33,436 bases of DNA from an uncultured Chloroflexota bacterium. Its GTDB lineage: Bacteria; Chloroflexota; Chloroflexia; Chloroflexales; Chloroflexaceae. A program made the position numbers and the translations under genes. Location: positions 1-33,436 of the forward strand of contig CAKZKA010000040.1 of assembly GCA_937120965.1 (NCBI GenBank), read 5' to 3'. Below the pieces are notes generated by a model. It worked only from the letters and a program-made list of their open reading frames with translations, was not told the DNA's origin and did no database searches. Shown here one piece after another: positions 3,000 through 33,436 of this stretch (the first letter of the stretch is position 1; each line of letters opens with the position of its first letter).

Positions 3000-3233
3000 C
3001 TCAACCCGTTCGCGGCTGTGCGGTTCCCCGCACTCCTCTCCGACGGGAGGGTTTTGGGAGGGCTGCGCCCTCCCACGTCTCTCTGGAGGGGGCGTGGGGA
3101 AATCGGGTTTCCCCACGCCCCTGCCGGCAGTGAACGGCAAGCCCTCCCAGGGGGAGGGGTTGGGAGGGCTACGCCCTCCCGGGAACAATTCTTTTCATTC
3201 CGGGGTTGTGCGGCGTAGCCGCATGGACGGCTG
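3000..3233. repeat. Mosaic palindromic repeat upstream of pgm
   Basis: Contains GGGAGGGC-TGC-GCCCTCCC at about 3057-3075, GGGGAAATCGGGTTTCCCC at 3096-3114, GGGAGGGC-TAC-GCCCTCCC at about 3163-3181, the AT-rich linker near 3182-3200, and TGTGCGGCGTAGCCGCA near 3207-3223, ending in CATGGACGGCTGA. Module order and linkers match the units near 4376 and 33241. No gene is visible. Confidence 0.85.
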
Positions 3234-3337
3234 ATACCATTTCAGATTGTAGATTTTGGATTGCAGATTGTCGCGCAAGGCGTCCAGGTGCGCTTTGACG
3301 CAACGCTGCTTGCGGAGTGTTCAAGTGAAATTGGTAT
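3234..3337. mobile_element. MITE-like element, copy 1 (~104 bp)
   Basis: A short non-coding element with imperfect terminal inverted repeats: ATACCATTTC at the left and GAAATTGGTAT at the right. The left arm contains the AT-rich phrase TAGATTTTGGATTG, shared with the copy at 31191-31287. It lies exactly between two parts of a mosaic repeat: the left flank ends in GGCTGA, and the right flank continues TGAGGTGAC followed by a degenerate GGGGAAACC-type palindrome. TGA on both sides is consistent with a 3-bp target duplication. It encodes nothing and must have moved, if at all, with a transposase supplied elsewhere. Confidence 0.55.
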
Positions 3338-3405
3338 GAGGTGACAAAGGGGGAAACGGGGCTTCCCCCTGCCCGAGAAAGAGCCATACCCCTGCGCAGG
3401 AGCGG

Positions 3406-17114: not shown

Positions 17115-17275
17115 CTGTACTGATGTGAGCATATGGGGAAACCGGGTTTCCCCACGCCCCTCCCTGTGGGGAGGATTTAACCATATTCATTCCGGCGTTG
17201 TGCGGCGCAGCCGCGTGGACGGCTGATGTGAAAGGGGCAACCAGGTTGCCCCATACCCCTCTCGACGGGGAGGGT
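17115..17275. repeat. Mosaic palindromic repeat upstream of trpS
   Basis: End motif CTGATGTGAGCATA (about 17120), GGGGAAACCGGGTTTCCCC (17135-17153), TGTGCGGCGCAGCCGCG (about 17200-17216), GGACGGCTGATGTGAA, and the compensated variant GGGGCAACCAGGTTGCCCC (17234-17252). The remaining 120 bp to the next gene at 17399 hold nothing recognisable. Confidence 0.85.
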
Positions 17276-20605: not shown

Positions 20606-20658
20606 ATGCGGAGCGACGGTAAAGCTGAAACGCCCGCTAGTGGGCGGCTGAAATGGTA

Positions 20659-22017
20659 TTACCCCACACTCGGCAACCCCGCCAGGGCCATCGCGACCTC
20701 GGCATCAGAATACTCGAAGTCGTGGAGCTTGCCGGCCTGGTAGTCCATGTACGCCTGCATATCGAAGTGGCCGTGACCACAGAGATTGAAGAGGATGGTG
20801 CGGCTGACCCCCTCTTCCTTGCAGCGCAGGGCCTCGTGGATCACCCCGGCAATGGCGTGATTGGCCTCAGGCGCCGGCAGGATGCCCTCGGTACGCGCGA
20901 ATTGAATACCGGCGGCAAAGGTTTCGAGCTGTTGAACGGCAACAGGCTCGATGTGTCCCAACTGCACCAGATGGCTCACCAGCGGGGCCATGCCGTGGTA
21001 GCGCAGACCACCGGCGTGGAAGCCCGAGGGCACGAAGGTGCTGCCCAGGGTGTGCATCTTCACCAGCGGTGTCAGGTGGGCTGTATCGCCGAAATCGTAG
21101 GCGTATTTGCCCTTGGTCATAGACGGGCAGGCTGCCGGTTCGACGGCCACTGCCCGCACGGCCCGCTCGCCGCGGAGCGCGGCTCCGATGAAGGGGAAGG
21201 CGATCCCGGCGAAGTTGCTGCCACCGCCGGTACAGCCGATCACCACATCGGGGTAATCCCCGGCCATTTCGAGCTGCGCCAGGGCCTCCTGGCCGATGAC
21301 CGTCTGGTGGAGCAACACGTGGTTGAGCACGCTGCCCAGGGCATACTTTGTATCCTCGCGCTGGGCCGCCACTTCCACCGCCTCGCTGATGGCGATGCCC
21401 AGGCTCCCGGTGCTGTCGGGATGTTCGGCGAGAATGGCCCGGCCTGCAGCCGTTTCCTCGCTGGGACTGGCGACCACGGTCGCGCCATAGGCCTCCATCA
21501 GCGCGCGGCGGTACGGCTTCTGGTCGTAGCTGACCCGCACCATGTAGACCTTGATCTCCAGCCCGAACAGCGCCCCGGCAAAAGCCAGCGACGAGCCCCA
21601 CTGGCCCGCGCCAGTCTCGGTGACGATGCGTTTGACGCCCTCCTGCTTGTTGTAGTAAGCCTGGGCGACGGCCGTATTGGGTTTGTGGCTGCCCGCCGGG
21701 CTGACGCCCTCGTACTTGTAGTAGATCTTCGCTGGCGTATCGAGGAGCCGTTCCAGGCGCCGCGCGCGAAAGAGCGGGGTCGGGCGCCACTGCCGATAGA
21801 TCGCCTGCACCTCCTCGGGGATCGCCACCGCCCGTTCGGTGCTGACTTCCTGCATAATCAGGGCCATCGGGAAGAGAGGCGCCAGGTCGGCGGGCCCAAT
21901 CGGCTGTCCCGTACCGGGATGCAGCACCGGGGGAGGTGGCACGGGCAGATCCGCGGCGATGTTGTACCAGGTGGTGGGCATCTGCTCTTCATTGAGTAGG
22001 TACTTGACGGTGTCCAT
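20659..22017 (-). CDS. trpB: Tryptophan synthase beta chain, TrpB2 type
   Basis: A 452-residue PLP enzyme condensing indole (or indole plus serine released by TrpA) to tryptophan. It is of the TrpB2 branch: long N-terminal extension (residues 1-75), [12 protein letters not shown] at 78-89, and the Schiff-base segment [14 protein letters not shown] with Lys112, where TrpB1 proteins have a different spacer. The phosphate-binding loop is seen in [14 protein letters not shown] at 22017 is preferred because AAGGAG sits about 10 bp upstream; an ATG at 22026 is too close to it. No trpA is adjacent, as is common for TrpB2. A Trp-specific T-box leader lies upstream on the same strand, with about 300 bp of repeat sequence between. 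Confidence 0.94.
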
Positions 22018-24984: not shown

Positions 24985-25086
24985 AGAACTAACCAGACAG
25001 CGCATAGCGGCATGGGATGCCGTATGCACCGGATCACAGCGCACGCGAAGGAGCACTCGCTCTATCGCGCGCCACTGCGTCGTCTG

Positions 25087-25205
25087 GATCTTCTTTACAT
25101 CCGGACTGTAACCGTCGGCCCCGGAGTCGCACCGGATCCTGCGTGCCTCGCAACACGCTCGTGGGCTATACCACCGATCGGGAATTTCACCCTGCCCCGA
25201 AGATC
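25087..25205 (-). promoter_or_regulatory. FMN riboswitch aptamer (RFN element)
   Basis: On the minus strand the closing P1 stem GATCTTC (25205-25199) pairs with GAAGATC (25093-25087). Between them are the highly conserved RFN blocks GGGGCAGGGTGAAATTCCCG, GGTGGT, AGCCCACGAGC, GATCCGGTGCGACTCCGG, GGCCGACGGT and AGTCCGGATG. Order, spacing and sequence match the family consensus. It governs the ribX-ribY transcript, repressing it when FMN is plentiful. Confidence 0.96.
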
Positions 25206-25218
25206 GTTTGTTAGTGAT

Positions 25219-29286: not shown

Positions 29287-29552
29287 GCGGCGCACAACCC
29301 GGAGGCGATGCGTGTCGTTTTTCTGTCGAACATTCCGTACAACCCGAGCTGCGATAGTGCACGGTAATGCCCGGGATCGTGATCCGCAACCCAGAATCGG
29401 CAATCTAAAATGGTATCACTCTGCGGTGCTGGTGGGCGCGCGTGGGAAGGCTCGGAGAGGTTGCAGGCCCCTCTGCGCAAGCGCCAGACACACCATCAAC
29501 GTTTGAGCCTAGCGGCTACCTTCCGGTAGCTTGAGAAAAGGAGCCTACCGCG
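29287..29552. other. Gap between permease and membrane-fusion genes
   Basis: No gene. It contains a solo end of the MITE-like element (GGCAATCTAAAATGGTAT, ending at 29416) and, next to the following ribosome binding site, three short complementary segments: GCTACC (29515-29520), GGTAGC (29525-29530) and CTACC (29545-29549). Confidence 0.45.
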
Positions 29553-31031: not shown

Positions 31032-31190
31032 GGACACGCAGCGCATCAGGACGCCATCCGCCAAAAACTCTACACCTGAAAGCCCCGCCTCCCCCCGTTG
31101 GGGGAGGCGCCTGGTTCCCTCTCCCGGCGGGGAAGGGTGCGGGAAGGGACGGTTCAGCACGCAACGGCGCTATACAGCATAGCCCTTCTG
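31032..31190. repeat. Degenerate repeat remnants after the membrane-fusion gene
   Basis: CCATCCGCCAAAAACTCTAC at about 31056-31075 recurs with few changes from the region downstream of hppA (about 6179). A CCTCCCCCCGTTGGGGGAGG hairpin follows at about 31088-31107 and may act as a terminator, though without a U-tract. Confidence 0.45.
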
Positions 31191-31287
31191 ATACCAATTA
31201 CCGTTGATGATGCCGCATTGCCTGAAGCGATTTCAGGCGTTGTGCTGCCCAGCGTGGCAATCCACAATCCAAAATCTAAAATGGTAT
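31191..31287. mobile_element. MITE-like element, copy 2 (~97 bp)
   Basis: Ends ATACCAATTA and AAAATGGTAT form imperfect terminal inverted repeats; in the opposite orientation it shares the arm TAGATTTTGGATTG with the copy at 3234-3337. The flanks are CTGA on the left and TGAAACC on the right, again giving TGA on both sides. Non-coding. The middle of the two copies differs, so the boundary is inferred from the ends. Confidence 0.5.
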
Positions 31288-31350
31288 GAAACCATGCCTG
31301 ACGAGACGTTGTCCCGGCGGCAGGACCTGAACCGTGCTGGAGAAAGCCAC

Positions 31351-31767
31351 ATGCCCCTGAACGCCTACTCTGAAGCCGTTCGTCGCGCCATTGCCGAACA
31401 GTTCCCGGAACTGCTGCCCGAGCTTCGCGAACAGGCCAATGGCTCGCTGCTGATCGAGTTACAATCGCCGTCCGGACGCCAGTTCTGGCTGAGCACGGGC
31501 GGCGATGAGGTAACCGTGGGGTTTGACCTGCATCACCTGCACTTTGGCAGTCCGCTGAACCCCGATGCCGACGATGATGTGGCCCGGGCAAGCGCGTATA
31601 TCCGCAATCTGATGAGCGGGCGCTACCGGATCGCCGTATGGAAGCGCGGCGGGCGCTTTGTGATGTCCGAAACGATAGAGGGAACGACCGTTCCACCGCT
31701 TGAGTCGCGTTCGTGGATCGAGCGAAAGTTGCTGCGTGGCTGTTCAGCCGAGGTCTACGGCTGGTAG
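31351..31767 (+). CDS. Small hypothetical protein
   Basis: A 138-residue soluble protein I do not recognise. It is rich in charged residues, starts MPLNAYSEAVRRAIAEQF, has a predicted helix-then-strands pattern (LLIELQSPSGRQFWLS, DEVTVGFDLHHLHFG) and ends with strands around YRIAVWKRGGRFVMSETIEG. No signal peptide or membrane segment. ATG at 31351 is chosen for GGAGA eight bases upstream; an in-frame ATG at 31294, at the edge of the MITE-like element, lacks such a site. The alternating strand pattern recalls small immunity or SUKH-like folds, but that is only an impression. It is followed by a dense palindrome array. Confidence 0.7.
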   Translation: MPLNAYSEAVRRAIAEQFPELLPELREQANGSLLIELQSPSGRQFWLSTGGDEVTVGFDLHHLHFGSPLNPDADDDVARASAYIRNLMSGRYRIAVWKRGGRFVMSETIEGTTVPPLESRSWIERKLLRGCSAEVYGW

Positions 31768-33159: not shown

Positions 33160-33436
33160 TCCTGATGTGAACATATGGGGCAACCGGGTTGCCCCACGCC
33201 CCTGCCCACGGGATGGCAAGCCCTCCTCACCGGGAGGGTTTGGGAGGGCGTAGCCCTCCCAAGAATAGTTATTTTTATGCTGGCGTTGTGCGGCGCAGCC
33301 GCATGGACGGCTGATGTGAACATATGGGGCAACCGGGTTGTCCCACGCCCCTGCCCATCGGGGCGCCGGGCGCCCCCAACACCAGTTGGGATAGGGGGCA
33401 ACCGGGTTGCCCCACGCCCCTGCCCATCGGGGCGCC
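33160..33436. repeat. Mosaic palindromic repeat, two consecutive units (right edge)
   Basis: CTGATGTGAACATAT starts at 33162 and again at 33311, a 149-bp period. Unit 1: GGGGCAACCGGGTTGCCCC (33177-33195), GGGAGGGC-GTA-GCCCTCCC (about 33243-33261), AAGAATAGTTATTTTTATG, TGTGCGGCGCAGCCGCA (about 33288-33304). Unit 2: GGGGCAACCGGGTTGTCCC (33326-33344) and a further GGGGCAACCGGGTTGCCCC (33395-33413). All use the CAACC/GGTTG version of the stem. The array runs off the window. Confidence 0.88.

Follow-up and report, generated by a model that had tools for sequence, protein, structure and literature searches.

Insertion sequences of the IS1031 type (IS5 family) and PIF/Harbinger elements duplicate the trinucleotide TNA at their targets. 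In this they are like the elements described below, from which they differ in their transposases and ends. Nezha is reportedly a MITE of Cyanobacteria. Judged by description rather than by sequence, Nezha and the MITEs of Anabaena sp. 90 resemble our elements in being short, non-coding and mobile. Anabaena sp. 90 is reported to have 147 MITEs without a source IS in that genome (PMC3542288).

Transposases of the IS630-Tc1-mariner lineage are described as integrating strictly at TA, with a stagger of 2 bp, and structural work on Mos1 traces the preference for TA to the flipping of the two target adenines across that stagger (PMC5481204). ISY100 gave the normal TA duplication in 34 of 39 in vitro products (PMC2170065). 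Departures from TA are described elsewhere: TTAA (4 bp) for ISHsp2, an IS630-family element of Halomonas (PMC3606827), TAA or TAAA for Fot elements (PMC7386202) and TATA for Sailor (PMC8533490). ISHsp2 thus shares with our elements the departure from TA and differs in duplicating TTAA, and none of these three departures has a free middle base in the portions of the accounts compared. Our literature search found no published IS630 element with TNA, a free middle base or a 3-bp duplication; ISfinder lay outside its scope and may record the trait, since one member of the group described here is named ISAcma28.

Here we analyze element A, an insert in a 33,436-nucleotide stretch of DNA (the window) from an uncultured bacterium of the Chloroflexaceae. 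Element A is almost certainly a MITE with a TNA duplication, and we assign a probability of roughly 0.78 to its being moved by a TNA-type transposase of the IS630 lineage. The proposed movers are like ISY100 and Mos1 in their DDE_3/IS630 transposase, their length of about 1.1-1.2 kb and their terminal inverted repeats, and unlike them in their flanks, which are described as TA there and are TNA on both sides here. As a MITE, element A is of an ordinary kind; what stands out is the proposed transposase branch and the unlikeness of the two ends.

Boundaries and anatomy of element A

The features of the window are collected in Table 1. The earlier note had placed an insert with matching ends and flanking TGA at 3234-3337. 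Insert, ends and TGA are all present, and those limits took in one base of each TGA, so that the boundaries become 3235-3336 and the length 102 bp. The terminal inverted repeats are short, TACCATTT and TACCAATT having 7 of 8 bases equal, and beyond them the two ends are unlike. The 7-bp unit of the left arm is also the length step between 95-, 102- and 109-bp copies. The neighbors of element A are a minus-strand frame that we take to be phosphoglucomutase-like and a frame from 3441 that is presumably alpha/beta-hydrolase-like.

Judged by their length, the MITEs should have no protein-coding capacity. On the reverse strand of element A, element B and one copy from genome G007, one frame appeared stop-free by eye, which may be chance. 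Single-strand folding of element A (z -1.51) and element B (z -1.27) gave no notable structure.

Table 1. Features of the window that bear on element A and related copies
Feature	Position	Strand	Basis
Mosaic repeat unit, left part, interrupted by element A; resumes after 3339	3191..3234	+	
Left TGA target copy beside element A	3232..3234		
Element A, MITE, 102 bp, TACC...GGTA	3235..3336	+	Sequence reading, genome matches
Element A left arm, after terminal TAC: 7-bp units CATTTCA, GATTGTA, GATTTTG, GATTGCA, GATTGTC	3238..3272	+	
Element A right end, resembles IS630-type terminal repeat	3307..3336	-	16/22 positions beyond TACCAATT equal to L329
Right TGA target copy beside element A	3337..3339		
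Third-subfamily copy, truncated, right tip missing; TGA before left end	29320..29415	-	88/96 bases equal to 102-bp copy in L083
TGA target copy beside element B	31189..31191		
Element B, 95 bp, one heptamer below 102-bp form	31192..31286	-	
TGA target copy beside element B	31287..31289		
Paralogous repeat unit without element; single TGA at equivalent place	33271..33328	+	

Empty sites in the mosaic repeat

Empty sites were searched with the joined flanks of each copy against all the DNA collected for the analysis; the sites recovered, ungapped across the junction, are paralogous, with 79-96% identity in the rows shown. For element A, the empty site is a paralogous repeat on contig C267, 88% identical over 59 bp and with one TGA at the junction. 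The empty form there reads GGACGGCTGAGGTGAACA, compared with GGACGGCTGAGGTGACAA in the window after removal of the element and one TGA. Within the window, the repeat units starting at 17183, 22102 and 33271 carry CTGATGTGAA at the equivalent place. The earlier claim that TGA had been duplicated by the insertion is therefore supported, since the paralogous empty site carries a single TGA. Paralogous empty sites were found for 11 of the 77 copies with identical TNA, seven of them outside the copy's own locus and the window copy among them.

GC-rich mosaic intergenic repeats occur across the window (for example at 266, 3092, 4329, 17131 and 33173) and share modules such as GGGGAAACCGGGTTTCCCC. 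An Rfam scan of the window found an FMN riboswitch at 25084-25208 on the minus strand, above the gathering score, and nothing besides.

Other copies in the window

The second copy with TGA on both flanks, given in the earlier note as 31191-31287, proved real once its limits were moved to 31192-31286 (95 bp). Two further stretches had been listed there as solo ends. The one at 29408-29416 turned out to belong to a nearly whole third copy (29320-29415). The other, at 20651-20659, reads TACCATTTCAG, with neither heptamers nor a right end after it in the stretch displayed; it is probably a chance match or a remnant.

The window thus holds three subfamilies: element A, element B and the truncated third copy. 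Pairwise identities of their 102-bp forms are 64 of 102 for A and B, 69 for A and the third, and 71 for B and the third; they are most alike over the left 45 and the right 27 bases and little alike over the middle 30. A 187-aa reading frame (31204-31767, plus strand) begins within element B, so gene callers may set its start too far upstream.

Copy number in the host genome

We searched the host assembly (5.18 Mb in 307 contigs) for further two-ended copies, as the earlier note had proposed, and found many: with 40 of 270 candidates scored there were at least 43 matches for element A, and with 40 of 264 scored at least 41 for element B. Left ends with up to 3 mismatches numbered 219, against 0 for a reversed-pattern control. 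Element B has probably spread recently, since 31 of its 41 matches showed 100% identity along 90 or more of the 97 bases. Among 84 distinct own-genome copies, 69 were 102 bp long and 10 were 95 bp, with one copy each of 88, 96, 101, 103 and 109 bp. In L083 and L006, at about 1390-1610 of each, two MITEs of different subfamilies abut with one TNA in common, as if one had landed beside an existing copy.

Five element A copies of the host genome (L008, L011, L014, L015 and L017) share one position within another repeated sequence, directly after gaacgtatgggcgccgacgggcgtt, which indicates that some copies multiply within a larger repeat. These copies are what might be expected of a recombining repeat unit that spread with the mosaic repeats and not as a transposon. 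For the family we consider such an origin extremely improbable, given that most listed flanks of element A copies differ among themselves, that 76 of the 84 own-genome copies have precise ends with identical TNA, and that filled and empty forms of the repeat sites coexist. A MITE-like element that inserted into a mosaic repeat with duplication of TGA, as first proposed, agrees with the copy number, the precise ends, the duplicated flanks and the paralogous empty sites alike.

The target duplication is TNA

Copies were picked by their ends alone and their flanks were read afterwards; the 84 own-genome copies are the best matches, and the sample is therefore rich in intact copies. The identical 3-mers of the 76 copies were all TNA (TAA 26, TTA 26, TGA 13, TCA 11), so the TGA of the earlier note holds for elements A and B and the duplication is more generally TNA. 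Seven of the eight copies with non-identical flanks differ by one base and the eighth (L012) by two. Identical flanks were also read in 20 of 26 cyanobacterial copies and in 5 of 6 copies from other Chloroflexales. Outside TNA, base preferences in the 84 own-genome copies are mirrored, G at -6 (47 copies) by C at +6 (41), and T at -5 (28) by A at +5 (33). This symmetry is consistent with an odd-length stagger centered on N.

It could be argued that an IS630-type transposase made its ordinary 2-bp TA duplication and that TNA reflects a target preference. TA stands at both termini of the elements, the lineage is described as duplicating TA (PMC2170065, PMC5481204), and T-N-A with a different N on the two sides occurs in five IS elements and a few MITE copies. 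A duplication of TA only is disfavored by the middle base, which was equal in 82 of 84 own-genome copies, where about 24 would be expected from base use, and in 22 of 26 cyanobacterial ones, and by the paralogous empty sites, which have a single TNA. We therefore hold this explanation to be very unlikely. From sequence alone, the 3-bp duplication that we favor would look the same as a duplication of the single base N inside an invariant T-N-A.

Distribution in relatives and in Cyanobacteria

Matches to element A were found in 11 of 31 genomes, namely 11 of 19 of the host's family (its own included) and 0 of 12 from other families of the order. Two insertions in a genome of the same genus (L091 and L101 in G003) have flanks in common with records labeled 'uncultured Chloroflexales bacterium' (L198 and L186).

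A left-end pattern with 26 fixed bases matched 49 stretches in genome contigs, 44 of them cyanobacterial and 5 in Chloroflexales or Chloroflexaceae records; in viral contigs (IMG/VR) it had no exact match. A right end followed 92-95 bp away, with identical flanks, in 18 of the 44 cyanobacterial stretches, and at 102 bp in 3 of the 5 others; most of the cyanobacterial elements are 92 bp long and have TNA flanks. Since the left arm is a GATTTTR-like heptamer repeat, common descent, transfer and convergence are indistinguishable here.

The right end of this 92-bp MITE was found on its own, too, in five cyanobacterial genomes. Two of these lone right ends belong to IS elements of 1163 and 1164 bp, L289 in Nostoc sp. 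T09 and L295 in N. punctiforme NIES-2108, which have TACCAATT at the start of both ends, TTA on both flanks and broken transposase frames. The transposase pieces of L289 matched DDE_3 (41.3 bits, cut-off 28.6) and HTH_33 (26.4, cut-off 25), with HTH_32 below its cut-off, and scored 63 and 41 bits against the IS630 model, under its whole-protein cut-off of 100. The piece from L295 had no match in the domain and IS630 model scans.

Likeness of right ends to IS630-type termini

We compared the ends of the MITEs with those of the IS elements over the 22 positions beyond the shared octamer, using 20000 shuffles. The cyanobacterial MITE right end matched L289 at 20 of 22 positions, a value reached by 0 of 20000 shuffles. 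The right end of element A matched both termini of L329, an IS element in a genome of the host's family (G009), at 16 of 22, again with 0 of 20000 shuffles. For element B the likeness to an IS end was weak (13 of 22; 381 of 20000 shuffles). Left ends compared with IS ends stayed at chance level (2390 of 20000 shuffles for A, 6461 for B and 2777 for the cyanobacterial form). Since the right ends of element A and of the cyanobacterial form match IS termini and the left ends do not, the MITEs appear to have a true terminal repeat on one side and a heptamer end on the other.

An IS5-family origin, from an IS1031-type element with a DUF4096 transposase, would also bring a TNA duplication, and TAA or TTA was read on both sides of 5 of 30 cyanobacterial DUF4096 loci (L228, L239, L246, L248 and L249) in a scan that rewarded matching flanks. 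Those five loci have ends beginning GAG, not TACC, DUF4096 had 0 matches in the host's own genome, and the MITE right ends match IS630-type termini instead. Loci with DDE_Tnp_4 or DDE_Tnp_1_2 transposases from 19 genomes, a set lying outside the MITE-bearing G014-G016, had no paired TACC ends, and with no convincing TACC-ended element among them they were also set aside as candidate sources. We judge an IS5-family origin very unlikely and retain an IS630-type mover.

The earlier note proposed a search for an autonomous parent with the same ends. IS630-type elements that share the right end occur in one genome of the host's family and, for the cyanobacterial form, in Nostoc. In the host assembly none was found; the group profile described below had 0 matches there at E <= 1e-8, and the single DDE_3 match in the host genome is distant. 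Among the 11 genomes with element A matches, 3 (G004, G005 and G016) match the profile, and the match in G004, which belongs to the host's genus, carries two stops. Because assemblies frequently miss IS elements present in many copies, little weight attaches to absence from 307 contigs. The source in the host genome may have been lost, left unassembled, or carried on another replicon.

Other candidate sources were discarded. On contig C118 of the host genome, the DDE transposase next to an A-type end belongs to an IS701-family element (NF033540) with its own ends (L112:1860-3300), which has TTAT on both sides (4 bp, by eye) and lies in a decayed A copy. DDE_Tnp_1 had three own-genome matches: this IS701-family one, L113 without TACC ends in the stretch fetched, and L114, whose stretch held a B copy only. 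A 1297-bp pairing of ends in L104, over a 353-aa reading frame, was taken as chance.

A proposed TNA group of IS630-type transposases

A tree was built from 41 transposase domains from plasmid records and 82 members of the order, 22 of them with a match. It contains a group of 32, here called the TNA group, with support of 89/89, which is not strong, and within that group a well supported core of 25 (99/100). Because earlier end scans had rewarded matching flanks, we counted from a flank-blind scan, taking the TACC register where two were possible. Identical TNA stood on both sides in 18 of the 32 rows. Another five (L327, L309, L329, L320 and L330) had T-N-A on both sides with unequal N, among them the IS elements nearest the right end of element A (TGA/TTA in L309, TTA/TCA in L329). 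Three rows (L335, L316 and L361) were neither identical nor TNA-shaped; for L361 the label 'TA' is ambiguous, since TA also stands at the termini of the elements. The other six gave no reading, L338 and L315 being mispaired and L318, L332, L358 and L359 lacking a usable pair. In the flank-rewarding scan L338 read TTA/TTA, and L327, which is TAA/TGA in the flank-blind scan, read TCA/TCA with other ends.

Unequal N counts against a simple reading of these flanks; recombination between copies would shuffle N and leave the T-N-A shape intact. None of the nine rows outside the group had identical TNA; L348 and L344 were without TNA, and L356 and L357 were TNA-shaped with unequal N. Only four of the nine had a usable register, two of them TNA-shaped, which makes the contrast with other IS630 elements a thin one.

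Identical TNA flanks occur in members from Cyanobacteria, Chloroflexota, Deinococcota (L326) and Pseudomonadota (L362). One member, ISAcma28, is annotated on Acaryochloris plasmid NZ_AP026077.1; it is like our elements in having TACCAATT ends and TTA on both sides, and differs from them in being an autonomous cyanobacterial IS. Against the PDB at E <= 0.01, the group profile had a single match, Sleeping Beauty SB100X (E 1.4e-8). The proposed movers have an IS630/DDE_3 transposase and lack the TA duplication, and with TNA in place of TA flanks they are not filed as canonical IS630 members.

Proposed mechanism and implications

In the mechanism that we propose, element A would be non-coding and would be moved as a passenger, by cut and paste, by an IS630-Tc1-mariner transposase. 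Acting in trans, this enzyme would bind the terminal repeat on the right and the heptamer array on the left, excise the element and join it to target DNA cut at TNA with a 3-bp stagger, and repair would then copy TNA on both sides of the inserted element. That an IS630-type transposase moves elements A and B, and the way in which their left end would be bound, are points that we infer.

On balance, we lean towards a broader reading in which a branch of the IS630-Tc1-mariner lineage cuts with a 3-bp stagger at TNA and moves MITEs with a true repeat that tracks the resident IS and a heptamer end that is near-equal in two phyla and maybe general-purpose. The surprise, not proven, would be an IS630 branch that duplicates TNA. 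If true, a sister branch in which T and A stay fixed around a free base would offer a natural way to test which features of the transposase set stagger and target. The MITE family itself offers many recent insertions in one genome, and the heptamer end common to Cyanobacteria and Chloroflexales bears on whether such passengers pass from one phylum to another.
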